Assembly (NCBI RefSeq): GCF_030268045.1
Contig: NZ_BSDC01000003.1
Coordinates: 496,001-560,000, forward strand
DNA: 64,000 nucleotides
Direction of reading: 5' to 3'
Source: Geothrix edaphica
GTDB taxonomy: Bacteria; Acidobacteriota; Holophagae; Holophagales; Holophagaceae
Made by a program: the position numbers and the translations under genes. Positions 33,156 to 63,955 of the stretch are shown here, piece after piece; within the stretch, counting starts at the first letter, position 1; each line of letters begins with the position of its first letter. Below the pieces are notes generated by a model, which had not been told where the DNA came from, did not search any database, and was given only the letters and a program-made list of their open reading frames with translations.

Positions 33156-33225
33156 GGCCCGATCGTACCGCCGCGGGGCTCAAAATGAATCAGCCGCCGA
33201 GTGTCGGTGATGCGCGGGAGCCTCG

Positions 33226-33291
33226 TCACAGCCCATCCAGCGGGCTCGCCACGCCCCGGCCGCCGCGGTTCAGCACATGGGTGTAGATCAT
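33226..33291 (-). pseudogene. intI: Integron integrase IntI, C-terminal fragment with the nucleophile tyrosine
   Basis: Minus-strand translation reads Met-Ile-Tyr-Thr-His-Val-Leu-Asn-Arg-Gly-Gly-Arg-Gly-Val then Ala-Ser-Pro-Leu-Asp-Gly-Leu-stop, the well-known end of IntI, in frame and ending at TGA 33,228-33,226. The Tyr is the DNA-cleaving residue. The remainder of the gene is 28.3 kb away at 61,599-62,542. It has no start or promoter of its own, so it is not expressed as a useful product. Confidence 0.92.
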
Positions 33292-33400
33292 CACAATTAT
33301 ACGCATTTTGCGCTGTAAATATTGTGTGTGAGTGGCGCCATTGCTGGGTTCTTATGTTTTTTGGGTAGTCCGATGTAAATATAGGTGGCCTGGACGTGGT

Positions 33401-33529
33401 TCAAATGGGTTCAATCTTTACTCCAACATGAGCCCCCTGAGCAATCGCGGCAACAGTGTTTTTCGACAGGCCGATTGTCTTGGCGATCTCCCGGTAGTTC
33501 TGTCCCTCGTCAAGCAACCGCATCACCAT
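33401..33529 (-). CDS. Small helix-turn-helix protein or remnant
   Basis: 42 residues from ATG 33,529. The middle (Asn-Tyr-Arg-Glu-Ile-Ala-Lys-Thr-Ile-Gly-Leu-Ser-Lys-Asn-Thr-Val) is a clear helix-turn-helix of the resolvase/IS21 transposase type. In-frame coding-like sequence extends about 17 codons upstream to a stop, without a start. It may therefore be the end of a lost transposase or excision factor at the left edge of the island. Confidence 0.4.
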   Translation of the reverse strand: MVMRLLDEGQNYREIAKTIGLSKNTVAAIAQGAHVGVKIEPI

Positions 33530-33615
33530 TCCGGCGCTATTCCTAGACCAGGATTCTCTCTTGACCTGTTTGGAAACTTATTCCAACCTACGGCGTAGAT
33601 CAGCTGGAGAAATTT

Positions 33616-33855
33616 ATGCCAGAAATCAAGAATGTCACCATCTCCGTGAACACGATCGACCGCGTGGTACCTCACCAGAAGATTTCGTACGCGACGTTGA
33701 TTGGGATGGCATTTCCTAATGCCACGGGTGCGAACTACATCGTTAAATACTACAAAGGTAATTCTGATAACTTGACTGGTACTCTGCCTCCCGGCGGAGA
33801 GGTAATGGTGAAAGATGGCATGGACTTCCGAATTACAGGCACTGGCGAGTCGTAA
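33616..33855 (+). CDS. Ubiquitin-like (beta-grasp, multiubiquitin-type) protein
   Basis: 79 residues from the ATG at 33,616 with a GGAG ribosome site. Predicted strands Val-Thr-Ile-Ser-Val-Asn and Tyr-Ile-Val-Lys-Tyr-Tyr-Lys-Gly with a late Val-Lys-Asp-Gly-Met-Asp-Phe-Arg-Ile-Thr fit a single beta-grasp domain like those encoded next to bacterial E1-like genes. It ends Gly-Thr-Gly-Glu-Ser, with no Gly-Gly tail, so trimming or a different linkage would be needed for conjugation. Its last 41 bp overlap the start of the E1-like gene in another frame. Function by context: the modifier of a ubiquitin-like system. Confidence 0.7.
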   Translation: MPEIKNVTISVNTIDRVVPHQKISYATLIGMAFPNATGANYIVKYYKGNSDNLTGTLPPGGEVMVKDGMDFRITGTGES

Positions 33856-35002
33856 TCCATTCATCGACAAAATCATCAACCAAGGCTACGACGTAGGATT
33901 CGTTAACGCGCATCTCGTCATTTTCGGCGTGCCCTACCTGAACGCCTCGGGTGAGTTGAAGTATCTCGACATGATCTGTCCATTGGATCTGCGCGAGGGA
34001 TACTCGATCGACCGCCCATCGGATCATAAGGTCTATTTCGCGGGCGAGATACCGTGCAACATTGATGGGCAAAAAATCTGCACGGGTACTGCCGAAGAGG
34101 CACGAACCGTGTCGGATCAAATCGTGGGCAATAGAATGCTTTCCAGCAAGCCCGAAGGGATGAGGCAGTACGACTCCATAGAAGAAAAGATCAACCAGTA
34201 CCTTGCCCTGATCTCTTCGCCTGCGATCCATAAGTACCCTGGCGTTACGCCTCGACGGGCCCTGAAGAAGCACCTAGAGTCCGCAATGAGTCCGTTGAAA
34301 TTCCCTGACGCGCTGTCTGCCCGTGAAGGCGTAGTGGAACTGTCGCACAAGTTGCGACAGCACAAGGTGGCCATCATCGGGTGCGGTGGCACGGGCGCGT
34401 ACGTACTGGACTACCTCGCAAAGACCCATCTTGAGGAGATCCACCTCTTCGACGACGACATCGTCCATGTGCATACGCTCTTCCGACTCCCCGGAGTATA
34501 TGGTGAGCAACATCTCGGTCTACCCAAGGTCGAAGTATTGGCCGACAGCTATGTCAACTTTCATGGCGGAATCAAACCTCATGTTGAACGCGTTGATCAA
34601 AACAATATGGGGTGCTTGGCCCGTTTCGACTTCGTCTTCGTCTGTGTTGATGATGCCCCTTCGCGACAAATGATTGCTCAAGCCTGTCACGGTGCCTCGG
34701 TGCCGTTTGTGGACGTGGGCATGGGGTTGAATAAGGGTGCAAACGGTCTGTATGGATTCGTTCGTACCGCCGGCGGCGATCACGGGGATTTTGACAAACT
34801 TAATGGAACGCAGTACCTGCCCGCACAAAACGCCCAGGATCGGGATTACAGGAATCAGCCTCAGATTGCGGAACTCAATGCCCTCAATGCTGCGATAGCG
34901 GTGATTCGATTCAAGCAACATATGGGATTCTTCGACCGCCTGGCCAGTTCGCACGCCGTCGTATTCGACGTTGCCGAAATCACAATGGATGTGGCAACGT
35001 GA
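33815..35002 (+). CDS. DUF6791-ThiF: E1-like adenylating enzyme
   Basis: 395 residues. Residues 10-150 match the DUF6791 pattern (Asn-Pro-Phe-Ile-Asp-Lys-Ile near the start, Asp-His-Lys-Val-Tyr-Phe-Ala-Gly-Glu-Ile-Pro-Cys). Residues 180-380 form a ThiF/E1 Rossmann domain with Val-Ala-Ile-Ile-Gly-Cys-Gly-Gly-Thr-Gly-Ala and Leu-Phe-Asp-Asp-Asp, used to adenylate the C terminus of a ubiquitin-like protein. No other start codon precedes the conserved Asn-Pro-Phe, so the 41-nt overlap with the modifier gene appears real. DUF6791 is of unknown role; an E2-like job is a guess, as no separate E2 gene is present. Confidence 0.8.
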   Translation: MAWTSELQALASRNPFIDKIINQGYDVGFVNAHLVIFGVPYLNASGELKYLDMICPLDLREGYSIDRPSDHKVYFAGEIPCNIDGQKICTGTAEEARTVSDQIVGNRMLSSKPEGMRQYDSIEEKINQYLALISSPAIHKYPGVTPRRALKKHLESAMSPLKFPDALSAREGVVELSHKLRQHKVAIIGCGGTGAYVLDYLAKTHLEEIHLFDDDIVHVHTLFRLPGVYGEQHLGLPKVEVLADSYVNFHGGIKPHVERVDQNNMGCLARFDFVFVCVDDAPSRQMIAQACHGASVPFVDVGMGLNKGANGLYGFVRTAGGDHGDFDKLNGTQYLPAQNAQDRDYRNQPQIAELNALNAAIAVIRFKQHMGFFDRLASSHAVVFDVAEITMDVAT

Positions 35003-35403
35003 GCCCCCGTGTATATCGCATCATAGAGTGCGAAAGGCTTCCGCCCCAGGTAGGGCCATATGAGTTCCATTACAGCCGCCGTTTTGAGATGGCCGCTTTG
35101 GCCTGCGCATGTGGGTGCGGACACCGGGTCATGCTGAATCTGCTAGATCAACACCACCTATCTATAGAGGGGGGATCTCCCACCGTAACCCCTTCTATCC
35201 TGGTTTCAGATGCTCCTTGCTTGTCTCATTTCTTTATCCGAAGAGGTCAGGTGGAATGGGCCCAGCAGTGGTCCAAGAAGACAGTCGATAGGGTCATGAA
35301 ATCCCAGGTGCGTCGCCACGTCGAACAGAGCAAGAAACGAGAACCGATACCTTCCTTCCTTCGCCGCTGCGTCGGTTGGTTCACGTCGTGGTTTGAGCGC
35401 TAA
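34999..35403 (+). CDS. DUF6527 family protein of a ubiquitin-like operon
   Basis: 134 residues. The start GTG overlaps the TGA of the E1-like gene (GTGA). A Cys-Ala-Cys-Gly-Cys-Gly-His stretch (about 36-42) likely binds metal, followed by Asn-Leu-Leu and a Ser-Ile-Glu-Gly-Gly-Ser-Pro-Thr-Val-Thr-Pro-Ser-Ile turn typical of DUF6527. DUF6527 proteins recur in bacterial E1-like operons, where they have been discussed as proteases or accessory factors; the activity here is inferred only from that context. It ends a three-gene unit. Confidence 0.75.
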   Translation: MSPRVYRIIECERLPPQVGPYEFHYSRRFEMAALACACGCGHRVMLNLLDQHHLSIEGGSPTVTPSILVSDAPCLSHFFIRRGQVEWAQQWSKKTVDRVMKSQVRRHVEQSKKREPIPSFLRRCVGWFTSWFER

Positions 35404-35956
35404 TCTATTCGGCTCTGAATAACACCTTTAAGGCTTTTAGGTGGCCGTGAGGTTCCGCTGACTGGGGGCTCTGATTTCGAGCAATTCGATGAGGGTCTGG
35501 AAAACCTTCCTTGAATGAAGAACTCATGGAGCTTCTTGCCAGCGAGTTATACCCTATGAGTCGTTTTTGTGTGTGTGAGTGTGTATTAATGCACTATCAA
35601 GATGGCTTAAGTTCCTATTAGAAACATGAATTTTTTATGAAGAGAGGTATGGGCTGATCCCTCAAGTAGGTCATCGGCCAAGTTCTTCTACCCGCCAGAT
35701 TTAGGACCGGGAGCTTATTAAAATCGGCCAAAGAAGGCCTGAATTTACAGAATGGGACGAGGCTTTAGACTTATGATACCGGCTAAAAATGGCCCGAAAT
35801 ACGAGGACCTGATTATCGGCGACCCTCAGCCTAAACAGACCTTGTATTGGTCAGGCAATAGACAAACAGAGGCTAACTATTTGAGCTAAATTCGGCTAAA
35901 AGTGGTTGCATGGTGACCACAGTTGGTTTACCCTACATCTCAGGAGGGAGGACACT
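35404..35956. other. Gene-free, AT-richer stretch with short repeats
   Basis: No convincing coding frame. A GTGTGTGTGAGTGTGT run lies near 35,568 and four related CGGCYAA motifs are spread over 35,675-35,907. The last lies about 50 bp before the next gene. It may be a control region of the gene at 35,957 or a scar of an earlier insertion. Confidence 0.5.
35675..35907. repeat. Iteron-like CGGCYAAARRDGG repeats
   Basis: Related 15-mers at 35,725 (CGGCCAAAGAAGGCC), 35,780 (CGGCTAAAAATGGCC) and 35,893 (CGGCTAAAAGTGGTT), plus a weaker CGGCCAAG at 35,675. Spacings are 55 and 113 bp, and the orientation is the same. They could be binding sites for a regulator or replication/recombination protein. 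Confidence 0.45.
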
Positions 35957-36160
35957 ATGAAGGCCGGACTCACGATTGACGATCTGATCGCGGCCTATGG
36001 GCCGACCATCCGATCTATGCCCTCGGGCAAGCCCAGGGACCCGATGGAGCGGGAGCTTCTCCGCCAGTTGGGCGACCCTACGATTGGCCGGGAGAAGGAC
36101 GAATTGACGCGCCACGCTGGAGAGCGCCCTACGAATGAGAACGCAAGGGGTCGGCGATGA
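35957..36160 (+). CDS. Hypothetical 67-residue protein
   Basis: Starts at ATG 35,957 with an excellent GGAGGGAGGA ribosome site. It begins Met-Lys-Ala-Gly-Leu-Thr-Ile-Asp-Asp-Leu-Ile-Ala-Ala-Tyr, then turns hydrophilic and ends with a basic tail. No family is recognised. It lies 114 bp before a Phd-VapC pair on the same strand. Confidence 0.5.
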   Translation: MKAGLTIDDLIAAYGPTIRSMPSGKPRDPMERELLRQLGDPTIGREKDELTRHAGERPTNENARGRR

Positions 36161-36274
36161 CCCCGCAATTCGGCGGTCCCCCGGACGACGATGATCCGAA
36201 AGGGCGAGCTTGATCACCCTTCCAAGGAGGGGCTCGAACGGGCCCTTGAGATCGGACTGGATTGAGGAGATGGC

Positions 36275-36544
36275 ATGACCAAAGCAGCTCGCGTGCCCAC
36301 GGAAGAAACCGTCAACCTGCGGGAGGCCAAGGCCAATCTGAGCAGCCTGACCAAGCAGGCCAAGGGCGGAACTCGCGTGGTCATCACCAACCATGGGACA
36401 CCCATTGCGGACCTGGTGCCACATGGAACCGGGGCCAATCCCATTCGCTTCCTGAAGCGCCCCGGGCCGCTCCCGAAGCCCATCAAGCTGAACGGCGAGG
36501 GTCCCTCGGCCACCGATCTCGTCCTGATGGATCGGGAGGGTTGA
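36275..36544 (+). CDS. Type II antitoxin, Phd/YefM family
   Basis: 89 residues. Val-Asn-Leu-Arg-Glu-Ala-Lys-Ala-Asn-Leu-Ser-Ser-Leu and Val-Val-Ile-Thr-Asn-His-Gly-Thr-Pro-Ile-Ala-Asp-Leu-Val are the DNA-binding and dimer part of the Phd/YefM fold; the Pro-rich C-terminal tail would bind the toxin. It lies 1 bp before a PIN-domain toxin, the usual order. Confidence 0.88.
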   Translation: MTKAARVPTEETVNLREAKANLSSLTKQAKGGTRVVITNHGTPIADLVPHGTGANPIRFLKRPGPLPKPIKLNGEGPSATDLVLMDREG

Positions 36545-36545
36545 G

Positions 36546-37016
36546 GTGGTGGTCCCTCAACCCAAGTTCGCGCTCTACCTGGACACATCCGCCCTCGTGA
36601 AGCTGTTCATAGAGGAGGACGAGAGCCCTCAGGTGCGGGCCCTGGCAGAAGGCCGGAAGGGTGCGGAAGTGCTCCTGGTGAGCCGTCTCGGCTACACCGA
36701 GGCTTCCGTCACCCTGGCCCGAATGGTTCACCTGGGCCGGATCACAGCCTCAGAGCTTCCCCATCACCTGGGGGCGCTGGAGGACTACTGGGATCAATCC
36801 ATCCAGGAAGTCCCCCTCACCGACGAGATCCTGGAAGACGCTCGCCAGTTGGCCCAGCGATTCCCGCTGCGGACCTATGATGCGATCCACCTAGCCTCAG
36901 CACGGGAAGCCAGGAAACTGCTTCGAGGAATTTTTGAGGGCGAAGTGCGTTTCCTTGCATTTGATGGCGCACTCCTGAAGGCCGCAGAATTGATCGGATT
37001 CACTATCCCAAGTTGA
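36546..37016 (+). CDS. vapC: VapC-like PIN-domain toxin
   Basis: 156 residues, starting at GTG 36,546. PIN-domain acids are in Tyr-Leu-Asp-Thr-Ser-Ala-Leu-Val-Lys, Ser-Arg-Leu-Gly-Tyr-Thr-Glu-Ala, Tyr-Asp-Ala-Ile-His-Leu-Ala-Ser-Ala and Phe-Leu-Ala-Phe-Asp-Gly-Ala-Leu. It would cleave tRNA or rRNA when free of the antitoxin. The immediate Phd neighbour makes a VapBC-type stabilisation module, common in mobile islands. Confidence 0.88.
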   Translation: MVVPQPKFALYLDTSALVKLFIEEDESPQVRALAEGRKGAEVLLVSRLGYTEASVTLARMVHLGRITASELPHHLGALEDYWDQSIQEVPLTDEILEDARQLAQRFPLRTYDAIHLASAREARKLLRGIFEGEVRFLAFDGALLKAAELIGFTIPS

Positions 37017-37021
37017 ACGGT

Positions 37022-37175
37022 TTACCTGTTGGCCAGTAACAGCAGTAGTTGGGGCATGGCCGGTGTCCGGACTGCCACCGTCAGCAACCGAGACAGCATG
37101 GACTTCAGGTCGAAACGCCAGTTGAATCGGTATTGGAACTCGGCCAGATAGCGGTCCAGATGACCTAGAGCGAGG
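37022..37175 (-). pseudogene. IS1595-family transposase, C-terminal remnant
   Basis: Minus-strand reading gives Leu-Asp-Arg-Tyr-Leu-Ala-Glu-Phe-Gln-Tyr-Arg-Phe-Asn-Trp-Arg-Phe and ends Leu-Leu-Leu-Leu-Ala-Asn-Arg-stop. This matches the end of IS1595 (ISXO2-like) transposases (His-Leu-Asp-x-Tyr-Leu-x-Glu-Phe). Coding similarity stops at about 37,175, so only the last 45-50 residues remain. It shows an older insertion inside the island. Confidence 0.65.
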
Positions 37176-37188
37176 GAAGGGCTCCACG

Positions 37189-37344
37189 GTGGACTCGCTT
37201 CTGAAGGTGCTCAAGGCCCTCGATTCGCTCGAAGGGCTCGACTACTTGGCTCCAAAGGCCTCAGTCGATCCTATGGCTCTCCTGAGGCGGCGGGCGCCCC
37301 TTGTTCGTGTTCGCAAGACTCGCAAGCAGAAAGGCGAATTGTGA
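37189..37344 (+). CDS. Possible 51-residue protein
   Basis: A frame from GTG 37,189, after GAGGGAAGG, to TGA encodes a helical Leu-rich start (Ser-Leu-Leu-Lys-Val-Leu-Lys-Ala-Leu-Asp) and a basic tail (Arg-Lys-Thr-Arg-Lys-Gln-Lys). No family is recognised. It could be real or a leftover of a larger gene. Confidence 0.3.
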   Translation: MDSLLKVLKALDSLEGLDYLAPKASVDPMALLRRRAPLVRVRKTRKQKGEL

Positions 37345-37621
37345 ATCCGAACGCTGTCGAAGTCTGTATTCGGGGACAGCAGGATGGTGCCGTGGCGTTC
37401 GACCTAAGACCAACAACTATGCTTCAGCTATTCCCCCACATGGATGCGGACGGCCATTGAGCTGTCCCCTCTTCGCATGCCGCTTGCCGACCGCCGTCGC
37501 CCCTTTGTCTTACCGAAGCTGCCGAGGCTGACTTACTGTGGGCTCTCTGGAAAGCTGGCGGACGCGCTAGACCAGAATTTCTATAACGACTAGGATCGGC
37601 ATCTAGGGTATGGATACGGCG
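37345..37621. other. Stretch with no gene seen
   Basis: No supported coding frame. An inverted pair GGGGACAG / CTGTCCCC (near 37,375 and 37,461) could fold, but its meaning is unclear. It separates the toxin-antitoxin and transposase scar from the DUF6161 gene. Confidence 0.35.
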
Positions 37622-38809
37622 TTATTTTTCTTTTCCCTGTACCGCCCTCGTGATGATTTCAATCGGAGTCGCTGGCCCGCCGTCATCCACGATTCCTGTG
37701 GCCGACGGCCTGAAAAGGACCGAGAGAATCAACTCCCGGTCATCGTCCTGCATGGCCTTGCCTCTCTTGAGCAATGCCAGATAGGCGTTGGACATTACGG
37801 CTCGCTCATCAGCATCCGTGTGAAGGTGGAGCTGGCTAAGCATCACCTTCATCAGAATCCGGATGATCCAGATCGCCATGGTTAGGCTGATCAGGATGAG
37901 CCCAAGTTTCCACGGCTCCGGCCATTTCCCAGGCTGAATGGTCGGGAGAAGAACCTTCACTTCCTGGATCAGTCCCAAAGTTCCGACAACCATCGCAACG
38001 AGCACAACCCCGACCATGCACCAGAGGGCGGTGAAGTGTTTTGAGGCTTTCTGCTTCCAGTAGAGAACTGGTGCCTGAAGAGCAAGCTGCGCTTCATAGG
38101 TCTTAGAGATCAAATCTAGTTGGGCCTGCCCTACACCAATGGCGTCATTGAACTGCTGGCGCGAATCGTCGAGGGCCGCCTGAGCACTGTTCTTGAACAG
38201 CGCGATTTCCTCCTCGCCCATCTCGTGCTGCCTCTGGATCAGGGCACTCTGCTCTTCGGCCTTTGATGCGTTTTGTGAGTAATGATTTGAGGCCTGGATG
38301 AATAGCTCATCCAGAGCTGCCTTCTCAGAGCTGGCGGTCCCCTTCAGTCCGTTTCGCCAGAGCATCGCTCGAAAGATCCCGTCAAGCGATTGGGAGGACT
38401 GAGTGGACATATTTAAAGACACGGGGGGGGCCGTCAGAGCTGCGGTAGCCCAGGCCGCGCTTACGGGAGATGTCTTCGAGAGTTCCAGAACGAACTTCCC
38501 AATGGGCATTTTGGAGGAGAAGGCGCGGCCACCGGAAACCCAATTTTCAAGGGCATTCTTTATTTCAGACCGATATAGATTAGGGTTGCCATGGTAATTG
38601 TTGATGAGGTTTTGAAGTTGTTGGCGCAATCCATATTGTCCCTGACTCAGGGCATTTGTGAGGTTCCCATCAGTATTCATTACGCTTATTAACCAATTCC
38701 AAGCCGCTGATTCTTCAGCATTCCAAGCCTGGAATTCCTCGAATGTCTTGAAGCGGAGTCGTCCGAATTGTGTTCCCAGGTCAAGGTCTAGAAATAGTTC
38801 ATCTGCCAT
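37622..38809 (-). CDS. DUF6161 family membrane protein
   Basis: 395 residues. A soluble N-terminal part with a long helical segment is followed by two membrane spans (about 258-282 and 303-325). The C-terminal soluble end has Leu-His-Leu-His-Thr-Asp-Ala-Asp-Glu-Arg and Leu-Phe-Arg-Pro-Ser-Ala-Thr-Gly-Ile-Val, the hallmark of DUF6161. The family is of unknown function and occurs in accessory regions. It diverges from the gene at 38,958, with a palindrome between. Confidence 0.7.
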   Translation of the reverse strand: MADELFLDLDLGTQFGRLRFKTFEEFQAWNAEESAAWNWLISVMNTDGNLTNALSQGQYGLRQQLQNLINNYHGNPNLYRSEIKNALENWVSGGRAFSSKMPIGKFVLELSKTSPVSAAWATAALTAPPVSLNMSTQSSQSLDGIFRAMLWRNGLKGTASSEKAALDELFIQASNHYSQNASKAEEQSALIQRQHEMGEEEIALFKNSAQAALDDSRQQFNDAIGVGQAQLDLISKTYEAQLALQAPVLYWKQKASKHFTALWCMVGVVLVAMVVGTLGLIQEVKVLLPTIQPGKWPEPWKLGLILISLTMAIWIIRILMKVMLSQLHLHTDADERAVMSNAYLALLKRGKAMQDDDRELILSVLFRPSATGIVDDGGPATPIEIITRAVQGKEK

Positions 38810-38864
38810 AGGGTCCTCGGATTGGGTTCACGAATGAGAGGCATGAGGAAAGTTTGGCTGCTAT

Positions 38865-38879
38865 CTATCATAGTGATAG
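38865..38879. promoter_or_regulatory. Palindromic operator-like site between divergent genes
   Basis: CTATCA-TAG-TGATAG, a perfect 6-bp inverted repeat with a 3-bp spacer, with a further CCCTATCATACC nearby. It sits mid-way between the two start codons of divergent genes, as expected for a shared regulator site. Confidence 0.45.
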
Positions 38880-38957
38880 TGTTTCCCTATCATACCGCTA
38901 TTGTTCGTTCTTCTACAGGTGAATTCTACACATTGCTCGAACTGAGGATAATTTGTT

Positions 38958-39716
38958 ATGACACAGGACTACCGCCCCCATATTCCCACCGTTGAATGGG
39001 CAATACGACTTCTCGTTCAGGCTGAAGCCAAAGAATTAGACCCGAATTCCGCTGCTGCACTCAGGAAGTGTTCTGCATTGATTCGATCGACGTTTGGGGT
39101 GGAAGTGGCTGCCACTCCCACAGGAAAGGAATTGCAGCGCTTTCGTATATTCATGAACGAACTTGCACCCATCCTCGATGGGTTGAAATTCTCTTCGAGT
39201 ATCCGCCTGCGAGTAGGGCTAGGGCTTCTCCACCAGTCTCTGGAGCATATGGACTCGATCTGCGAACTAATCTCCATGGGGCTCGTCGGGTCAGCCTTCG
39301 CGTTGTTGAGGCCTCAATACGAGGCTTGCCTCAGAGGCGCCTGGATTCTCGCCTCCGCTACCGACGGAGAGATTGATGCTTTCATGAGGGGAGGAGAACC
39401 TCCGAAAGCGGGTGTCATGGTGGGGGCTGTCGGAGCCATCCTTGGGGCAGAGAATAACCTGTTTAGGGTGTTTCATTCCGATGTCTATCCGCATCTACAT
39501 GATTTCACCCACGGTGGCGCCATGCAGGTGAATTCAAGAAACTCTCCGACTGAGATCACCAGCGATTACGCGCCTGATGGAATGATCTGGCTGATGCGGA
39601 ATTCCGCAGTAATTGCAGGTCTGGCCGCCGCCATGATGTGTGATCAAACGCAGCCAGAAGTCGGTGAAAAGGTGAGGGAAGTCTTTGGGCGCCTTTATTC
39701 CGATCTCCAGCACTGA
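38958..39716 (+). CDS. Hypothetical helical protein (DUF6988-like)
   Basis: 252 residues, mostly helical. His-Gln-Ser-Leu-Glu-His-Met-Asp-Ser-Ile-Cys-Glu-Leu and Gly-Ser-Ala-Phe-Ala-Leu-Leu-Arg-Pro-Gln-Tyr-Glu-Ala resemble DUF6988 and other HEPN-like proteins; His-Asp-Phe-Thr-His-Gly-Gly sits later. The assignment is by eye and weak. It might be an abortive-infection-type effector, but nothing shows it. Confidence 0.5.
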   Translation: MTQDYRPHIPTVEWAIRLLVQAEAKELDPNSAAALRKCSALIRSTFGVEVAATPTGKELQRFRIFMNELAPILDGLKFSSSIRLRVGLGLLHQSLEHMDSICELISMGLVGSAFALLRPQYEACLRGAWILASATDGEIDAFMRGGEPPKAGVMVGAVGAILGAENNLFRVFHSDVYPHLHDFTHGGAMQVNSRNSPTEITSDYAPDGMIWLMRNSAVIAGLAAAMMCDQTQPEVGEKVREVFGRLYSDLQH

Positions 39717-39800
39717 CTCGACTCAGGCGGGTCTACACGAACCCACACCTAAGATTTTAAGGAACAGATTGATAGCACACTCCTGGACGACAGTAGGCAC

Positions 39801-40601
39801 TTAGGTCCAGTGAGCAGCAACATGCTGGCAGATCAGGATGCTGGCCTGATTCGCCAATACAGCATCAATAAGAGTGGTCTTCACCCGGTCGGGATATCGG
39901 ACGTTGGGACTGCAATCAACAACACGAAGTAGGCGCTCCTCACAGCAAGGTAGACCAACCTTCGATGCCAGTAGGTTCAGATGAAACAAATTGTGAGGAG
40001 GTCCGCCCTTTGGTTTGGATCTGGGATTCCCTCCCTTTCTGCTTATGTAGGCACTCAAGGTCTTCTCGGCAGCTTGCTGAGAAGACCATTTAGAAAGCCC
40101 CGGTGCGGATGGCCTCTGAAGGGCATACCTCGGAGCGGCATCTAGGTCGGCAGTGAGAGGTGGTGGCAGGTTGGATCGGATCTCATTGAAAGCCTGGAAC
40201 CCACGGATGATGGCGGCCAGGAGGTCCTCCATAACATCTGAAGGAAGTGATTCCAGGAGGCGATCCGTCACATTCTCGATCCACCTGAGCGGCTCGACCT
40301 TCACCGTTCCAAAAATGAGCGGATAGGTGACTACGAATGGGTCCTCGTTGATGTGAACCAGCATCTTGCCGACGTTCATGTCGATGAGAAGGCGGTCACC
40401 ATAACGCGACTCGAACCACCCGTGGATTCGGGCGAATATGTCGCTGCTCATCGTGAAACTGACGTGGCATTCCTGAGAGACCATGCCGCAGGCTTGGAGA
40501 GGCCGAGCCGGGATATCTACCCCGTGATCCCTAAGCCGGGCATCCACGGATGCCATGTAGGTATCGAAGGCAGCCAGTGATTCAAGGTCCCGCCAGCGCA
40601 T
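39801..40601 (-). CDS. Hypothetical protein downstream of the type IIG/IIL enzyme
   Basis: 266 residues, starting 3 bp after the stop of the restriction-modification gene, so very likely co-transcribed. The first 130 residues have a mixed alpha/beta look (Val-Ser-Phe-Thr-Met-Ser-Ser-Asp-Ile-Phe-Ala-Arg-Ile-His-Gly-Trp-Phe). The last 100 are basic and helical (Lys-Trp-Ser-Ser-Gln-Gln-Ala-Ala-Glu-Lys-Thr-Leu-Ser-Ala-Tyr). No family is recognised. A role as accessory or modulator of the enzyme is inferred from the operon only. Confidence 0.55.
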   Translation of the reverse strand: MRWRDLESLAAFDTYMASVDARLRDHGVDIPARPLQACGMVSQECHVSFTMSSDIFARIHGWFESRYGDRLLIDMNVGKMLVHINEDPFVVTYPLIFGTVKVEPLRWIENVTDRLLESLPSDVMEDLLAAIIRGFQAFNEIRSNLPPPLTADLDAAPRYALQRPSAPGLSKWSSQQAAEKTLSAYISRKGGNPRSKPKGGPPHNLFHLNLLASKVGLPCCEERLLRVVDCSPNVRYPDRVKTTLIDAVLANQASILICQHVAAHWT

Positions 40602-40604
40602 TGT

Positions 40605-43460: not shown

Positions 43461-43580
43461 GCATCCAGCGTAGCCGCGGCTGGCCTGAGTCGGGGATCCC
43501 AGTGAGGGCATGGGTGAACGAGATGACCTTCTCCCTGAAAATGGGTCCGAACATTCAGTGCTACCCACCTCCCTTCTGCT

Positions 43581-46514: not shown

Positions 46515-46645
46515 CGCAAGCCCCACGCCCGTCCTGCCCAGGTCAGGGCCGTCCCGTCATGCCTCCACCACGCCCACACCGAACCCCTCCGAGGGGATCC
46601 AAGTATGGCGAATAAAAAACGAAAATCAAGCCTCGTCTGGGGAGC

Positions 46646-47311: not shown

Positions 47312-47512
47312 GTGGGGCATGATGCCCGGAGGCTATGATTTTCGGAAGAATTCAGAGATAAAACCTCACGATGTGGATTTGATTAATTTCCAAATTTACA
47401 GGCAGGTCAGGGTCGTAGGCTGCTTTCAAGTATCGAGGAATATCTTGTCTATTCGACCAGTTGATCGCTAGGCACGATGAATGGTCGGCAGGGTAGCCAA
47501 TGGCGAGGGGGC

Positions 47513-47743: not shown

Positions 47744-47849
47744 AAGGGCGATCGTCGGCAATTGACGACTATGAATCTACAGACTATAAGTAGCATTGTC
47801 GAGCTAATCTTGCAACATCACCCCTACCTGAGGGCGGATGGAGAGAAGC

Positions 47850-48260: not shown

Positions 48261-48377
48261 GGTTGAATGAATAATCAATTCCAAGCGAAGGAACTAGCGG
48301 GGGCCGGCGCCCGATTACTTCTCACTGGATTTATCGCCTGATGGCCAAAGCTCACTCAGAGAAGACTCCGCCCCATT

Positions 48378-49139: not shown

Positions 49140-49186
49140 GCAGGCAGTTCCAAGGGAACCCATTGTTACAGAATTGATTGTTGTGG

Positions 49187-52726: not shown

Positions 52727-53282
52727 TATTGCCTTAGTGTGTGAACGGAGTATGGCAGACCGAATCTTACTTCGCGAGTCTCGGCGACTGTCTACCGCTC
52801 TCACACAGCTTTAGCGTCACATCCCATGCAAATCCGCGCTCAGAGGATACCCGTTGCATTGACACCATTGAATCGGAATTGGGAGTCGAATCGGGGGCTC
52901 TGCCCCCGTACCCCCGGGGTTTATCGCATAAGGACCAAAGCTCTCGCTGAAAGAATCGATCCCAATTTGCGGCCAGGTAGAAGAAGGGCCTCCTTGTGGG
53001 AGGCCCTTGAAGCGTGAGCTTCGGCCCCAGCTCGGCGCTCGGGTCGCATCCCTGCGTTGCCCTATCCTCCGGCTGGCTGGAAGAAGGGTAGGCCCACAAA
53101 TCTCCCTCGACAAGTCCTAGCTGTGTTTCCTCCGACCCGGTGCTGACGGTGGTTCAAGTGCCTGCCCTAGTGCATCTGCGTCGCCGAAGAAGGCGGCCTA
53201 AGGAATGTTGGGATTTACCGATTCCATTCGGCGACTCTTGCGCCTTGGATGCCGGGGGCGGAATATTCTCTGAGAGGTCCGA
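52727..53282. other. Stretch with no gene, containing hairpins
   Basis: No supported frame is seen on either strand. A short stem GGGGGC / GCCCCC lies near 52,898 and a longer one AAGGGCCTCC / GGAGGCCCTT near 52,984. They may end transcripts from either side. It separates the membrane-protein pair from the small antitoxin-like gene. Confidence 0.4.
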
Positions 53283-53528
53283 GTGCCGAAAAAAAATCTC
53301 AATGACTCACGGCCTTCCTCACAACAGGCGGGAGAGGATCAAGAGATTGCCGAGATCATTAACGCGGTTCTCCCCTTGGCTGGGTCAGAACCAGTAGCAT
53401 TCGCATGGTATCGCTCTCAGTGTTTGCCTTCCTTTGGGGACCGAACTCCAGAGGATCTCGTTCGAGAAGGCAGAGCGGAGGCGGTGAAGTCTTACATAAG
53501 TCGAATCGCCGTCGGTGGCCAAGCCTAG
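53283..53528 (+). CDS. Small MbcA/ParS-like (DUF2384) protein
   Basis: 81 residues, starting at GTG 53,283. The second half (Phe-Gly-Asp-Arg-Thr-Pro-Glu-Asp-Leu-Val-Arg-Glu-Gly and Val-Lys-Ser-Tyr-Ile-Ser-Arg-Ile) matches the toxin-binding domain of MbcA/ParS antitoxins; no DNA-binding part is present. It converges on the helicase gene with 6 bp between stops. No toxin lies beside it. Confidence 0.6.
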   Translation: MPKKNLNDSRPSSQQAGEDQEIAEIINAVLPLAGSEPVAFAWYRSQCLPSFGDRTPEDLVREGRAEAVKSYISRIAVGGQA

Positions 53529-53534
53529 CGTTGG

Positions 53535-55634: not shown

Positions 55635-56047
55635 GGGATCACCCGCCTCCCAGTCTCGACCATGTGCTGCTCGATGTGCTGGTACCGCCTCAATTTCTGC
55701 CGCAGTCCCTCCACCTCGGCCTGGAGGGCGGCGTTCCGTGTCTCCAATGTCTGGATGCGGCGGTCCTTGGCGTCGTCCTTGGTCGGTCCCGCCTCCCGGG
55801 TCCCCATCGGGGCAAGACCCAGTTCCTGGGCGGCGGCTTCGAGAATCGCCCGGCACTTAATGTTCTTGTAGATGCTCTGGAGGTCCACCCCGGAGGCCAG
55901 GGCTACAGCCTTGGCTGAGACCTTGCCATCGCGGGACGGGACCCCTTTACCCTCCGCTCGCAGGGCCTCCAGGTACCGCGCGAGGGTCCGGGCGTAATCG
56001 TCCCCGATCTGTTTTCCGTTCATTCGGGCCTCCTCCGAGGTTTTCAC
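55631..56047 (-). CDS. Small HTH-coiled-coil protein (TnpC-like)
   Basis: 138 residues from a GTG at 56,047 that overlaps the TGA before it. Val-Ser-Ala-Lys-Ala-Val-Ala-Leu-Ala-Ser-Gly-Val-Asp-Leu-Gln-Ser-Ile-Tyr-Lys is a helix-turn-helix, and Arg-Ile-Gln-Thr-Leu-Glu-Thr-Arg-Asn-Ala-Ala-Leu-Gln-Ala-Glu a C-terminal coiled coil. Similar small proteins accompany Tn554-type recombinase sets (TnpC). Role inferred from that: strand or orientation control of integration. Confidence 0.65.
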   Translation of the reverse strand: MKTSEEARMNGKQIGDDYARTLARYLEALRAEGKGVPSRDGKVSAKAVALASGVDLQSIYKNIKCRAILEAAAQELGLAPMGTREAGPTKDDAKDRRIQTLETRNAALQAEVEGLRQKLRRYQHIEQHMVETGRRVIP

Positions 56048-56442
56048 GAATCACTCCTCAGCAGGGGGATCTCCTTATCCAGAGGTTTCTCGAGGTCCTG
56101 AGGCAGTTTGTCCCAGCGGATGGCTCGCTCGATATGGCGCAGGAAGCGCAGGTCGTACTCCGCCAGCGCCTTCTCCAACTCCTCCACTCGGGCTTGGAGG
56201 TTAGCGATCTTCCGCTCGGCGTGATCCTTCTCCACCAGGTTCTCGCGCCTGCCACGCCGCGCCAGGTAGGTGGCCTTGATCTCAGGCTTGCGTTCTAGCG
56301 CCTGGCGGGTGAATTGATGCTTCAGGTGGATTCCGACTTCTCGGCACACCGCCTCCCAAGTAATTGTCGGCAGAGGCCAGGCCTTGATGATCGCGCAGAC
56401 TTGGACGATATCGTCCTGGGTGAGATGGCGGAAGGCGCTCAT
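56044..56442 (-). CDS. Small coiled-coil protein of the recombinase operon (TnpC-like)
   Basis: 132 residues from ATG 56,442, which overlaps the previous stop by one base (TGATG). The N-terminal part (Thr-Trp-Glu-Ala-Val-Cys-Arg-Glu-Val-Gly-Ile) looks like a helix-turn-helix, and a central coiled coil (Ala-Asn-Leu-Gln-Ala-Arg-Val-Glu-Glu-Leu-Glu-Lys-Ala-Leu) follows. Its form matches the accompanying 138-residue protein, so the two may act as a pair. Confidence 0.65.
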   Translation of the reverse strand: MSAFRHLTQDDIVQVCAIIKAWPLPTITWEAVCREVGIHLKHQFTRQALERKPEIKATYLARRGRRENLVEKDHAERKIANLQARVEELEKALAEYDLRFLRHIERAIRWDKLPQDLEKPLDKEIPLLRSDS

Positions 56443-58352
56443 CAGCAAGCCTTCTCTCTCTTCCGGTAAGGAGAAAGTTGGACCAAGTACCCAGAGGGGA
56501 TCTTCGGATCGAGGTGGATGTCCAGCATTCGCACTAGGCCTTCCCGGCGCTCCATCTCCACATTCAGCCAGCGGTCCTTGTTGAAGTAGCCGGCTTCGGT
56601 CTGCTTCTGGTACCGGGCGATCGTCTCATCACACTCTGCCAGTTGCTCCTTGGTCTCCTTGATGTGGCCTGCGTTGCCCTTAATCACGATCAGCCCCGTA
56701 CACCGTGCGCAGGCTTCCGGCATGGTGGGCGGGGTGGTGCCTTCCGCATGACTACACAGTCCCAGCCTGGAATAGCTGATATTCCCGAGCATGGTTCCCT
56801 TGAGCTCTGCCCGGCGGATCGGGTCTTTGATGTTCTTCAGGATATCGGCCCAGGGACCGATGAACTCACCTCGTTCCAAGGCTTGGCGTACCACCTCCAA
56901 CATCTCCCAGGGCTGCATGTGGTCGTAGTTGCGGTTCGCTACGGCAGGATTGCGAGAGCTCCTATTGAAGTAGCCTGCGATTTCCAATTCGCTCAGCCCC
57001 GCCCGCTTCATCCAGGTGGTGAGCGTGTGCCGGGGGTCGTGAGTGGAAAAGCCCCAAAACTTTCCCGAGTCGGGATCTCTCTTGTCAAAGCGCTCGAAGC
57101 AGGACTTTACGTTTGTGCCTCCTGCTAGGAAGTGGTTGATCTTCATTGCTTTCAAACGGTCTGCGGTGCCGTTCAGGCCATTGCGGCTTCCCATGAAGAA
57201 GCCGCTGCTGATCACGAAAAGAGATTCGTGCAGTTCCTGCGGCCAAGGCTCCATGACCACCTTGCCCAGGAAGCTCCTAGAACGGACAAGTTCGCGAATG
57301 TCCGGAGTATTGAGGGCGTACCGCATGCCGCCTCTTCCCTCGCGTAAAACCATTGGGTAGGTCCCGGATTTCCCAAGAATCCTTCCCGTGGATTGAGCTG
57401 TGACACCAAGCAGTTCCGCGGCCTCAGCCGCGGTGTATGCCCGATCATTCTCCAGACCCGGCAGATTCACGCGACCCTCGTAGAGGGCACGGGCGTTCTC
57501 CCGGAAGGGATCCGTGATCCGCCGAATCTCATCCAGGCATTCCTTCATCAACGGGATGAGGTCGCTGGGAATCCACTTGGGCTGCGTCGCCTCGGAGAGA
57601 CCATTCTTCTCAGGCACGTAGCCCAGGAACACTCCCTCCAGGATCCGACCCTGGCTGTCCCTACCCGTTCTTGGATGCCAGCAATCTACCGGCATCGAGA
57701 GAAGTTCGTTGATTCTGAAGCCAGTACAGAGCAGCATCGTCGCCGTACAAGCCAGTAGGCGATCCTGGTCATTGTCTGTCCCCTTCATGATCTCCTGCCA
57801 AATTGCCCCGAACCCTTTGATCGCACCCGGCGGGATCATATGTTCATCGCCGTTCGACTCAGGCAGGGAAAATGGGTTGCGGAAGGTGATCAGGCCTTTC
57901 GTCAATCGATTCAAGTTGAGGGCATTTGCCAAGCTTGCGAGTTCTTTACCATTGTTAAATTTGGTCACGTCGGTCAAATCGTCCCTATTTCGCAAGTCTT
58001 CGACCGCCTGATGGAAGTGGTCCGCAGATATGGTGGTGAGATCCTTGACCCCAGCAACCACCCTGGAAAAATGCCGTGCAGACACTGTGAAATTTTTACA
58101 ACTGAACCCACTCCTGCCGTTCTTCGGGGCGCTCTCATTGGCGACAACAGCCTTGAGAAGGCTCTTGAACGGTTCCTCGAACCTAGAGAAATCGTGGCGG
58201 CGGTCCATCCTGCCTGCCTCGCGTTTAGAAGGCAGCTGCCAAATGTCGGAATCGAAATCGATACCGAAGGCAGCCATGACGAGTCGTCGTCCCTCGATGA
58301 TGTAGGCCTGAAGCCGCTTCGCCGATTCGGTGAGGTGAGGGTCAATACTCAT
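56442..58352 (-). CDS. Tyrosine recombinase, third of the trio
   Basis: 636 residues. The catalytic set is seen: Arg in Thr-Gly-Phe-Arg-Ile-Asn-Glu-Leu-Leu, His-x-x-Arg in Thr-His-Asp-Pro-Arg-His-Thr and the nucleophile in Asn-Arg-Asn-Tyr-Asp-His. A Cys-rich motif (Gly-Leu-Cys-Ser-His and Ala-Cys-Ala-Arg-Cys) follows the catalytic domain, as in the larger recombinase of Tn554-like sets. The start overlaps the previous stop (ATGA). Confidence 0.85.
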   Translation of the reverse strand: MSIDPHLTESAKRLQAYIIEGRRLVMAAFGIDFDSDIWQLPSKREAGRMDRRHDFSRFEEPFKSLLKAVVANESAPKNGRSGFSCKNFTVSARHFSRVVAGVKDLTTISADHFHQAVEDLRNRDDLTDVTKFNNGKELASLANALNLNRLTKGLITFRNPFSLPESNGDEHMIPPGAIKGFGAIWQEIMKGTDNDQDRLLACTATMLLCTGFRINELLSMPVDCWHPRTGRDSQGRILEGVFLGYVPEKNGLSEATQPKWIPSDLIPLMKECLDEIRRITDPFRENARALYEGRVNLPGLENDRAYTAAEAAELLGVTAQSTGRILGKSGTYPMVLREGRGGMRYALNTPDIRELVRSRSFLGKVVMEPWPQELHESLFVISSGFFMGSRNGLNGTADRLKAMKINHFLAGGTNVKSCFERFDKRDPDSGKFWGFSTHDPRHTLTTWMKRAGLSELEIAGYFNRSSRNPAVANRNYDHMQPWEMLEVVRQALERGEFIGPWADILKNIKDPIRRAELKGTMLGNISYSRLGLCSHAEGTTPPTMPEACARCTGLIVIKGNAGHIKETKEQLAECDETIARYQKQTEAGYFNKDRWLNVEMERREGLVRMLDIHLDPKIPSGYLVQLSPYRKREKAC

Positions 58353-60103
58353 TTGGATGCCCCCTCCAAACGCTGGATCTTCATGATCACGACCCCCATT
58401 GCGGCGAGGTGCCTGTCGTACCGCTTATACTCAGCCTCTGGCAGTCCCCGGTGGATTAGGACCTCTCGCCGCGCCCAGAGCGCGTCGTAAACCTTTTGGT
58501 GGGGAGCCTCCACGATGGGTGTGTATGTCGGGCACACGTAGCAGTCGATCGAGCCGTTCATGGCGATCGGGCATCCAGAGGCCCCAATGCAGCCGCAACG
58601 CCCCGTCCCGCCGACTTGGGTTCCCTGTTTATCGATTTCCAACCAGGGAGGAAACGGCACCAACTTCTCAGGTTCCACCTCGTCCGCATGGATCGGCTCG
58701 TTCGGCTCGAAACATTCCGCTAGCTGGGAGAACTCCGGCACCTGGTTCAGCCTCTCCGTGAGCCGCACCCCAGGCCCGAAGTACGGCCTGATGCTCTGGA
58801 CTTGCTTGTTATGCAGCGCCGCGATCACCTCGAGAGGCGTTCCGGACAGGATGTGGTTGGTAACAAACCCATCCCGGAAGGAGTAGAACGTGGGCACGAT
58901 CACCCCGCCCTTGCCATCCGGTATCCGCAGGGCCTCAAATAGAGTTCGGAGGTCAGTCAATAAGACATTCGCCGGCTTCTCAAACCCTTTAGCAAGATCC
59001 TCGTGGGGAAGACCGTAAACCTTGCGAGCCCAGGAACCGGTCCCTTCTTGGGCTGTCATGAACAACGGCCAGTCCAGGGAGTTGTCGAGACCCACCCGAG
59101 CTCGAATTTCCCTGTTCTCCGCGATAAGTTCCGGCACCAACCGAGCGAGTTCGTTGCCCATGGGCAACGGCCCCTGGATGGCCTTGTAGTCAGCGTGGCG
59201 GATCTTACTCTCCGGCATCCGAATCTGTGCCAGCGCCGTCTCGCCCTCAACCTCGATGAACTCGAAATGGCTTTCCCGCAGTTTGCGGAAAGCGTCGGGT
59301 CGGTCACCGAATCGCCAGGCCAGCCAGCCCAAGACCAGATCAGCAATACCCACGTGGGAGGGGCGCAGAAGTTGGCCGCCCTTGCGGATCACACAGTACT
59401 TACCCTCAGTTCTTCGGGTTTCCCCTGAACGAAGCGGGCGGTACAGTACTTGTCCATCCCGCAGGAGGCCCTCGGCCTTATTGAAATACGCGGCAATCAC
59501 CGTGAGTGTCGTCACATCGTAGACCTCCCGGTTCTTGGCGGCCTTGCTGCGCGGGGCGCCAGGCGCCGCCTCCAGGCGCTTCACGAGTGGAACGGGTGCG
59601 TCGATCCTGACCTGCTTCAGTTGGACGCAGACATACTTCGTGAAACCGGGGATTCCCTTGCCTGCCGCCCAGGAATAGAGACGTCTCACGACTGAAAAAT
59701 AGTCCCTCCAGGCGCCAGTGTACAGTTCTCGGAGATGGCGCTGGACGGCCAGGATGTCCGCCAATTCGATCTCCTCGGTCCGTTCCCAGGGTTCAGTCAA
59801 GATGTCCCAGTTCTTGATACTGAGGATTCGACGAAACTCTGTCAGTGCGTGCCTCTCCGACTTGCCTTGCAGTAAGGCAGCGACGTAACCCATCAGCACG
59901 CGCAGCATGATTGGCGTAGTTTCAACACGGGTCCAGTCGATGATTCCACTGCCGAGTTCGGGGGGCAGACGCCAGACAAGGCCCGAGGTATCGATGATGT
60001 GTCCCTCTCGGGCCTGAATCGAGGCTGGGATGGACGACAGCACCTCCCTGAGAGGGTCCCTGTTGGGCTCCGTTTCTGCCCGAAGGGCCATCCCGGGGTT
60101 CAA
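58349..60103 (-). CDS. Tyrosine recombinase-like protein, second of the trio, degenerate active site
   Basis: 584 residues from TTG 60,103 (GAGGA upstream; an ATG at 60,091 is also possible). The end of the catalytic domain reads Phe-Tyr-Ser-Phe-Arg-Asp-Gly and Gln-Ser-Ile-Arg-Pro-Tyr-Phe: the expected His of HxxR is Tyr, while a final Tyr may remain. A cysteine-rich segment (Cys-Gly-Cys-Ile-Gly-Ala-Ser-Gly-Cys and Cys-Tyr-Val-Cys) follows. It is likely a structural or regulatory partner of the active recombinases. Confidence 0.8.
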   Translation of the reverse strand: MNPGMALRAETEPNRDPLREVLSSIPASIQAREGHIIDTSGLVWRLPPELGSGIIDWTRVETTPIMLRVLMGYVAALLQGKSERHALTEFRRILSIKNWDILTEPWERTEEIELADILAVQRHLRELYTGAWRDYFSVVRRLYSWAAGKGIPGFTKYVCVQLKQVRIDAPVPLVKRLEAAPGAPRSKAAKNREVYDVTTLTVIAAYFNKAEGLLRDGQVLYRPLRSGETRRTEGKYCVIRKGGQLLRPSHVGIADLVLGWLAWRFGDRPDAFRKLRESHFEFIEVEGETALAQIRMPESKIRHADYKAIQGPLPMGNELARLVPELIAENREIRARVGLDNSLDWPLFMTAQEGTGSWARKVYGLPHEDLAKGFEKPANVLLTDLRTLFEALRIPDGKGGVIVPTFYSFRDGFVTNHILSGTPLEVIAALHNKQVQSIRPYFGPGVRLTERLNQVPEFSQLAECFEPNEPIHADEVEPEKLVPFPPWLEIDKQGTQVGGTGRCGCIGASGCPIAMNGSIDCYVCPTYTPIVEAPHQKVYDALWARREVLIHRGLPEAEYKRYDRHLAAMGVVIMKIQRLEGASK

Positions 60104-60165
60104 GGAGTCCTCTTGCGAAAAACCGGAGTGCGCTTTGCATTAAGCACTTGGTGACTCCACAGAAG

Positions 60166-61458
60166 TTAAAAAGGCATTTCTTCCCGGATCTTCATGGCCT
60201 CGTAGATTCGCTCGGCAGAGGTCTTCTCCAGGACCTTCCCACCGAGATCTCGGAGCGCAATCCGCATGTAATGACTCGGCATCTTGCTACGCTCGGTCCA
60301 CCCCATCTCGTAGCGCATCGTCCGGTCATCATTAGCGGTCCAACCCTCATAGCGGGCCAGCAAGTATCGGACACACCAGTCATGCCGAAGGTCGTGGGGT
60401 GAGAAATGAGGATCGAATCCCACCTTCAAAAGCTGATGTCCATTACGGCGCTCCGGATAATGCCTTCGCAATATCTCGAATAGAGCTGACAGGCGGCGCA
60501 CGGAGAGGGGGCGCACGGCTCCCTTCAGAACGTCCAGCCGCTCGGAAACGAATACATAAGGGCATTTTGGAGCTCCTGGGAACCTCTTCTCGTCCATCCG
60601 GTCAACCTCAAGCCACCGCTGAAGGGTAGCCATGCTGAGGGAAGAGAATAGGCGCTCCCGACCCTTTCCACGCTTGGCTCCGCTCGGAGCGCGACCTCGA
60701 GTTTCAAGCCTGTCATTCCTCCTCGCCGCAATGCGGAATACCATGCGGTCTAAGAACACATCGTCAACCCGCAACGCCAAGAGTTCCCCCATCCGCATGC
60801 CGTGCTCATACAACATGAGGAGAAGCGCGTAATTCCTGACCTGCATGCCCGGCTCAAAAGGATTTAGAGGGCTCCCAGGCTGGATGACGCTTAGGAATAG
60901 CTCACGCTGTGGTGAGGTCAATCCAGAGCTTGTACTAGAAGTCTGGTTCGGGTTGGTCTCAGTTGATTCATCCGTGACCCAGGACCCAACCCATTTCTCA
61001 AACCGTCGGTCCACCACCTTGTGAGTGGAGCCCTGGAGTTTGTATATGTAACCGCTGGCCAACCAGCAGAGATACTCGCGGAGGAACCCGACACGGGCAG
61101 CCTTGATGTGCGGAGCGACCCGTAGCTGCTTGGTGGCCTTCTCGGGGTCATGGAGATGAATGGCGAGCCCCATCAGGGCTTGGGCCTCGGAAGTTTCGCC
61201 GGGCGACAGAAACTTCCCGCTTCGCACTCGCTCCGCCCAGTCCAGACCCGGCCCGCCCTGAAATGAGAGCCAGTGGGCCACCGCACGGAGTTTAGAAAGC
61301 ACAGTTGCGTAGGCGTTGCCCTTCGGCACCAAGCTTCCGAGCGTCCAGAACGTCGTCTCATAAATTGGCAGTTCGTCACGGCACAAGAGCGGTATCCGCA
61401 GCCCGGAAGCCAACCGAATATTACGGATCCTGTATTGGCCGGGTTTGGGTGGCTCCAT
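60166..61458 (-). CDS. Tyrosine recombinase, first of the trio
   Basis: 430 residues from ATG 61,458 (GAGGTAG upstream). Arg222 in His-Gly-Met-Arg-Met-Gly-Glu, His355-Asp-Leu-Arg358 and Tyr397 in Ser-His-Tyr-Met-Arg form an intact R-H-R-Y site. An N-terminal SAM-like core-binding domain is expected in residues 1-190. It is the first gene of the six-gene operon and lies nearest the right end of the island, 141 bp from the junction, as usual for an integrase. A candidate promoter (TTGCTG, 17 bp, TATATT) precedes it. Confidence 0.9.
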   Translation of the reverse strand: MEPPKPGQYRIRNIRLASGLRIPLLCRDELPIYETTFWTLGSLVPKGNAYATVLSKLRAVAHWLSFQGGPGLDWAERVRSGKFLSPGETSEAQALMGLAIHLHDPEKATKQLRVAPHIKAARVGFLREYLCWLASGYIYKLQGSTHKVVDRRFEKWVGSWVTDESTETNPNQTSSTSSGLTSPQRELFLSVIQPGSPLNPFEPGMQVRNYALLLMLYEHGMRMGELLALRVDDVFLDRMVFRIAARRNDRLETRGRAPSGAKRGKGRERLFSSLSMATLQRWLEVDRMDEKRFPGAPKCPYVFVSERLDVLKGAVRPLSVRRLSALFEILRRHYPERRNGHQLLKVGFDPHFSPHDLRHDWCVRYLLARYEGWTANDDRTMRYEMGWTERSKMPSHYMRIALRDLGGKVLEKTSAERIYEAMKIREEMPF

Positions 61459-61598
61459 GACGACTACCTCTACAATTAATATAGTTCCGGGTAAGACGCC
61501 CAGCAAGATAAGCGAATGCAATGCCAAAATCTTGCTAATGTCTAGCATTTTTTGCAATAATAACCGGTATTCTTTACAGCAACCCATAGGTGCGAATT
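61459..61598. other. Right end of the island
   Basis: Between the first recombinase and the intI junction lie a short palindrome TGCTA-N5-TAGCA (61,533-61,547), AT-rich runs and, 18 bp from the edge, GCTGTAAA (minus strand). An inverted GCTGTAAA lies at the same depth from the left edge. These are candidate recombinase binding sites. Confidence 0.55.
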
Positions 61599-62542
61599 AT
61601 GGTGGTGGCCACGTCCTTGTGCCCCAGCAGCTCCTGCACGGTGCGGATGTCGTGGCCCGCCGCCAGCAGGTGCGTCGCGAAGCTGTGGCGCAGCACGTGG
61701 GGCGTGACCGGCTTCACCAGCTCCGCGGCCCGAGCCGCCAGCCGCACGGCCTTCTGGACGCTCTCCGCGTGGAGGTGGTGGCGGCGGACGAGGCCGGAGC
61801 GGGGATCCGCCGAGCGCTGGGCCGAGGGGAAGACCCACTGCCAGCCCCAGGCCCGCGCCGCCTGAGGCGACTTGAGCCCCAGCGCATCCGGCAGGCCGAC
61901 CTCCCCGAAGCCCTCGGCGAGGTCCCGGGCATGCAGCGCGCGCACCCGGCCGAGGTGGGCCCGGAGCGGCTCCACCAGGCGATCTGGGAGCATGGTCACC
62001 CGGTCCTTGCCCCCCTTCCCGTCCCGCACCACGATCTCGTGCCGCTCGAATTCCACATCCTTCACCCGGAGGCGCAGCCCCTCCATGAGCCGCATCCCCG
62101 TTCCGTAAAGCACCTGGGCCAGCAGGGCCATCCCGCCCTCCATCTGGTCGAACAGCGCGCGCACCTCCCCCGGGGTGAGGACCACCGGAAGCCGCGGCGG
62201 GCGCCTGGCCTGGACCACCTCGGACAGCCAGGGCAGGTCCACCTCCAGCAGGTTCCGGTAGAGGAACAGCAGGGCGGCCTTCGCCTGGTTCTGGGTCGAG
62301 GGCGACACGTGGCGCTCCACCGCCAGATGGCTCAGGAAGGCCTGCACCTCGGCAGCCCCCATCTCCCTCGGATGCCGCTTGCCGTGGAAGAGGATGAACC
62401 GCCGCGTCCAGTCCACATACGCGTCCTCTGTCCGCAGGCTGTAGTGCCGGACCCTCAGGCTGTCCCGCAGCTGGTCCATGAACTTCGGCGGCTGCACCCC
62501 CACGATCCGCCCTTCACCCGTCTGCCTATTTTTCCCGAGCAT
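61599..62542 (-). pseudogene. intI: Integron integrase IntI, main part, truncated before its tyrosine
   Basis: Started at ATG 62,542 (an upstream GTG and a later ATG at 62,479 are possible). About 313 residues remain. Core-binding domain: [12 protein letters not shown]. Catalytic Arg in Gly-Thr-Gly-Met-Arg-Leu-Met-Glu, IntI-specific insert [11 protein letters not shown], His-Val-Leu-Arg-His-Ser-Phe and Leu-Gly-His-Lys-Asp-Val are all intact. Coding sequence ends at Ala-Thr-Thr-Ile, just before Ile-Tyr-Thr-His; that part is at 33,226. Read-through adds a few foreign residues to a stop at 61,574. The gene is opposite in direction to the cassettes, as in all integrons. Confidence 0.92.
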
Positions 62543-62975: not shown

Positions 62976-63040
62976 TTAGGCCTTACACTTCTTCCTATTT
63001 CCAACCTCCATCAAAACCACTACAAGCTACATGGACTAAA

Positions 63041-63430: not shown

Positions 63431-63454
63431 ACTCTTTCCCCTTCCCAATTCCGG

Positions 63455-63577: not shown

Positions 63578-63605
63578 CGCTACCACCACAAGCACAGGAG
63601 TACCC

Positions 63606-63944: not shown

Positions 63945-63955
63945 GGGTTGTCTCG

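Follow-up and report, generated by a model that had tools for sequence, protein, structure and literature searches.

A probable GInt genomic island splits the integron integrase gene of Geothrix edaphica one 6-nt core ahead of its catalytic tyrosine codon

GInts are genomic islands with three integrases and are defined by the ginABCD operon (PMC5385486). The operon lies at one end of the island with the cargo following ginD, the far end is AT-rich, and the island is bounded by imperfect direct repeats of 10-17 nt, the cuts being staggered by 6 nt (PMC5385486). GinC has been described as tyrosine-recombinase-like, without part of the catalytic set, and joint action of the four Gin proteins has been proved only for a GInt other than the one described here (PMC5385486). 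Sets of adjacent tyrosine recombinases are also found in Tn554, which has tnpABC and no counterpart of GinC, and in RIT elements, which have three recombinases and no ginD gene (in part PMC10214605). A further group, the strand-biased circularizing integrative elements (SEs), combines several tyrosine-recombinase-like genes and a small protein with a 6-bp footprint and few target sites (PMC9345347; PMC10214605). Here we describe an island that we assign to the GInts and that appears to have integrated site-specifically into an integron integrase gene (intI); we put the probability of this whole explanation, including the joint action of GinA, GinB, GinC and GinD, at roughly 0.93. GInts themselves are already known, and what is new is intI as their target site, for which no earlier report was found in the literature searched.

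The window, that is the whole stretch of 64,000 nt that was analysed, comes from contig C3 of Geothrix edaphica. Within it intI is cut into two pieces on the same strand (62551-61601 and 33291-33226, both minus), which are separated by a gap of 28,309 bp (33292-61600). The features of the locus are as follows, in coordinates of the window.

33226..33291, minus strand: 3' part of intI, encoding MIYTHVLNRGGRGVASPLDGL and the stop; 66 nt including the stop, which are the last 22 codons with the stop counted; holds the catalytic Tyr; contiguous with the 5' part in G007
33276..33291, minus strand: ginA-distal att junction, ATGATCTACACCCATG; host core ATGATC at 33286-33291
33292..61600, no strand: island, assigned to the GInts; 28,309 bp, the length being taken from the empty-site comparison; 57.7% GC against 68.4% in window 1-33291
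33292..33591, no strand: AT-richer distal end; 48% GC over 300 bp and 42% in the outermost 100 bp (host 68%)
33600..53500, no strand: variable cargo; ThiF-like E1 with DUF6791 and a DUF6527 protein, PIN-domain, AbiZ-like, PDC-S52-like, MmeI-type IIG restriction-modification, DnaE-type polymerase and SRAP genes
53535..55856, minus strand: RecD2-like helicase gene; TIGR01448 8e-123, below the curated cut-off; at the same position in several related elements
55631..56047, minus strand: fifth gene, VPA1267/DUF6262-like; follows ginD in related elements
56044..56448, minus strand: ginD, small protein; profile against GinD 1.3e-14 and 5e-8, and alignment
56442..58352, minus strand: ginC, tyrosine-recombinase-like; conserved R213, H438, R441 and Y476; profile against GinC 4.5e-50 to 1.7e-33
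58349..60103, minus strand: ginB, large integrase-like protein; NCBIfam NF041502 3.5e-15, below the curated cut-off; profile against GinB 1.6e-21 to 7e-16
60166..61473 (open reading frame open up to 61587), minus strand: ginA, tyrosine recombinase; Pfam Phage_integrase 1.5e-13; profile against known-type GinA 3e-45 to 5e-29
61585..61600, minus strand: ginA-proximal att junction, ATAATTCGCACCTATG; 6-nt core ATAATT at 61595-61600; the terminal ATAATTCGCAC is common to two sister elements
61601..62551, minus strand: 5' part of intI, IntI residues up to ...DVATT, without the catalytic Tyr; TIGR02249; 94% to the intact IntI of G007
62650..64000, plus strand: first part of the interrupted integron's cassette array, with a clear attC at about 63454-63580; truncated by the end of contig C3, 33 nt past the window

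The preliminary description had proposed that intI is split by a 28.3-kb island, that the joined pieces give a full integrase and that the insertion lies beside the active-site tyrosine codons, and comparison with an island-free member of the same genus (G007, IntI 94% identical) bears this out to the exact base. In G007 intI is intact and both flanks are contiguous, giving an empty site ACCACC-ATGATC-TACACC within a complete intI that reads ACCACC-ATGATC-TACACCCATG. Window positions 31801-33291 align at 89% to positions 13-1518 of the G007 locus (L014), positions 61585-62768 align at 94% to its positions 1503-2685, and the overlap of the two alignments on L014 is the 16-nt att site only. The insertion was precise, with no loss of host DNA, and lies between the Thr-Thr and Met-Ile-Tyr codons, one 6-nt core ahead of the catalytic Tyr; since it falls right beside the active-site codon, the remaining IntI is left without its catalytic Tyr and C-terminal tail. 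The open reading frame of the 5' part (62551-61574, minus strand) is that of an integron integrase by its match to NCBIfam TIGR02249 (E=8e-129) and is family-like up to ...GHKDVATT. The earlier account of where the coding sequence stops needs a minor correction: the stop codon lies at 61574, inside the island, so that the truncated product gains IIRTYGLL. Many congeners of the host have an intact intI, and 22 of the 24 intI tails listed from relatives have ATGATC or differ only outside the core, deviations at the core among the 24 being GCGATC, ATGGTC and ATAATT, once each.

The preliminary description had itself named an assembly error as an alternative, and a split integrase produced in this way, or by unrelated gene pieces that merely resemble one, has next to no probability. 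The genome is in six contigs and may be incomplete, but both junctions lie well within the 560-kb contig C3, the flanks are contiguous in G007, and the same element end, ATAATTCGCAC, recurs at junctions at two other loci in other genomes. On the last two grounds the assembly-error reading was rejected.

The architecture of the island is that of a GInt. The genes ginABCD stand in the same order and on the same strand at one island end, adjoining the 5' part of intI, and GinA and GinB have tyrosine recombinase domains, that of GinB being below the cut-off. The cargo starts beside ginD and includes restriction-modification and other defence-like genes, as in published GInts (PMC5385486), the far end is AT-rich and the site is empty in G007. 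The att junctions are 16-nt imperfect direct repeats with 11 of 16 nt identical, and their 6-nt cores differ by side, ATGATC being that of the host and ATAATT that of the element. An octamer, GCTGTAAA, near 33312 is inverted relative to its copy near 61576. A pattern search for the distal end in this genome (G000) and in two congeners (G003, G014) gave no match; the pattern had been guessed ahead of an exact reading of the distal end, so that the result says little. Near the distal end the minus strand at 33420-33560 holds a fragment resembling a helix-turn-helix domain, REIAKTIGLSKNTVAAIAQG.

The four proteins were compared with described GInts by running profiles built from Holophagaceae homologues against known-type GInt proteins. 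Two ssb-site GInts of Proteobacteria correspond in all four genes. In the ssb-site element on P. aeruginosa pTROUS1 (L126), GinA, GinB, GinC and GinD were found in order (E 6e-38, 2e-18, 3e-39 and 1e-14), all four gin genes of a Paraburkholderia ssb-site GInt (L128) are homologous and collinear, and GinA, GinB and GinC were found in a Bosea element (L124). GinB and GinC gave no gathering-level Pfam match, and profile comparison of either with GinA gave no signal; they were placed by their homology to known GInt proteins, and GinC also by a predicted structure of medium confidence (pLDDT 64), for which the best matches in a fold search are Cre structures (E about 0.01). The four residues R213, H438, R441 and Y476 are invariant in nine aligned GinC proteins, so that the residue described as lacking (PMC5385486) is not obvious here.

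The island thus shares with the GInts (PMC5385486) the four-gene operon at one end, the cargo after ginD, the imperfect repeats, the 6-nt core and the AT-rich far end, and a GInt of the ssb-site type occurs in the same bacterial family. It differs from known GInts in its target, an integron integrase gene that is truly split, and in the fifth gene and RecD2-like helicase gene that accompany ginD. Its host belongs to the Acidobacteriota, a phylum not named in the original survey (PMC5385486), which is now added to those with documented GInts. Although SEs resemble it in having several recombinase-like genes, a small protein, a 6-bp footprint and few targets, their gene order and proteins differ, and published networks that separate SE from GInt proteins (PMC10214605) set the two apart; Tn554 and RIT elements share the adjacent recombinases and are distinguished by their lack of a GinC counterpart and of ginD, respectively. 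By analogy with the GInt for which it was proved, the four Gin proteins would act jointly to recombine the attachment site of the circular element with ACCACC-ATGATC-TACACC in intI, exchange taking place at the 6-nt core, where the host has ATGATC and the element ATAATT, and integration would split intI between Thr-Thr and Met-Ile-Tyr and leave the host DNA intact.

The interrupted gene belongs to an integron with an attC-bearing array beside it (attC at 63454-63580). The genome has 42 attC-related sites, and 22 attC-like sites fall within positions 1 to 12.6 kb of contig C2, against 0.25 in shuffled sequences; Rfam yielded nothing meaningful on the integron stretch. The sites on C2 (about 22 in 12.6 kb; L151, C2:1-13000) all have the same orientation. 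This array probably belongs to a large chromosomal integron, the physical link between C2 and C3 being unproved because C3 ends 33 nt beyond the window. A genome search found no second full integron integrase, and the IntI of the window is cut ahead of its catalytic Tyr. We infer that the truncated IntI is inactive and that the cassette array is now static; in Xanthomonas, loss of intI accompanies more stable arrays (PMC12444791). The likeness to the inactivated chromosomal integrons of Xanthomonas is that intI is lost and cassette arrays remain, whereas intI there was lost by frameshifts, stop codons or deletions (PMC12444791) and in the present case by the precise insertion of an island, which may be reversible. 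Excision would leave either ATGATC (Met-Ile) or ATAATT (Ile-Ile) ahead of the Tyr, and as either core keeps the frame and the catalytic Tyr, the inactivation of intI may be reversible. The locus is a clean case of one tyrosine-recombinase element apparently switching off another by a change that could be reversed.

The two closest sister elements, both from the same genus (G003 and G014), share the terminal ATAATTCGCAC at their junctions. The G003 sister (GinA 74% identical) has the end TTTATT-ATAATTCGCACTCATG and interrupts mscL after MSLKDEFKAFI, the remainder of mscL being on another contig and relatives reading ATC-ATGAAG-GGC. The G014 sister (GinA 59% identical) has the end C-ATAATTCGCACTCAAC and lies at the overlap of hemH and hemG, where relatives read CCC-ATGAGC-ACC. 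The part common to the three target sites is C-ATGA. More distant Holophagaceae GInts (GinA about 35-38%) lie at a DUF2203-like gene end in 4/4 genomes, and GInts more distant again were found at ssb, within radC and at a radical-SAM gene (the names mscL, hemH, hemG, DUF2203, radC and radical-SAM were read from translations and are not database matches). Two plasmid GInts with a distant GinA adjoin ssb, and in a third ssb is close by, past a group II intron gene. No GinA relatives were found in viral contigs and phage records gave no match; two viral-contig pattern matches to the element end had no gin genes alongside and were therefore set aside as chance. The preliminary description had suggested that attack on a recombinase gene might be a general strategy, and relatives were searched for further members and the sites they occupy; none of the other members found there lies in a recombinase gene. 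As the sister islands sit in unrelated genes, this suggestion is not supported, and the case by itself does not demonstrate a general attack on recombinase genes. This element group uses several targets, the intI site among them, and with three sister elements whose targets are mapped, the choice and change of target by GInts become testable.

It is likely that the insertion into intI was an incidental strike on a dispensable gene, made by an element that chooses its targets loosely around a short core, ATGA at each of the three known sites. Three sisters occupy three unrelated genes with C-ATGA as the shared part, and GInts of this bacterial family do strike coding sequences, as seen from the interruption of radC, mscL and the radical-SAM gene. 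What fits this reading less well is the strict site specificity of the more distant GInts of these hosts, as at the DUF2203-like gene end, and the closer resemblance of the sister ends to intI than to the sites they occupy. For the 16-nt ends of the three sister elements, intI is the best-matching site (11, 11 and 9 of 16), and the two sisters elsewhere match their own sites in mscL and hemG in only 6/16 and 5/16, as would be expected if the subfamily were specialised on the intI active-site codons, with intI as primary and mscL and hemH/hemG as secondary sites. G014, which carries a sister element, moreover has an intI pseudogene with ATAATT, the element core, where nearly all listed tails have ATGATC, and from the pseudogene's own substitution rates the chance of this arising by drift is about 1%. 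However, only one of the three sisters is in intI, the pseudogene is already degraded with G>A and C>T as its commonest substitutions, and 11/16 matches are common (about 84-168 per Mb, roughly 100), so that the better match to intI carries little weight by itself. Such specialisation is thus judged unlikely, and an incidental strike remains the preferred reading.

The pseudogene (contig C63 of G014; L130/L039) has ATAATT, and not ATGATC, at the exact GInt insertion point. In published GInt excisions the restored site sometimes retains nucleotides of the element (PMC5385486), so this core may, by analogy, be an excision scar. The end of the G003 sister reads Ile-Ile-Arg-Thr-His where IntI has Met-Ile-Tyr-Thr-His. 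An extended proposal, that the ends of the subfamily mimic tyrosine-recombinase active-site codons, with intI as the natural target, the island as a reversible integron off-switch and ATAATT in G014 as the scar of a past visit, is a shade more doubtful still than simple specialisation. A special affinity of the subfamily for the intI site is possible.

In the cargo, the DUF6527 protein gene neighbours that of the ThiF-like E1 with DUF6791. The genes for the DnaE-type polymerase and SRAP are adjacent (43581-47320) in a patch of raised GC content (67%), where neither imuA nor imuB is obvious. In nearly all related elements (window 53535-56047; L052, L046, L047, L131) the gene after ginD is the VPA1267/DUF6262-like one, and the RecD2-like helicase gene comes next in several of them, even where GinA identity is only 25%; the pair possibly forms an accessory module of Holophagaceae GInts.
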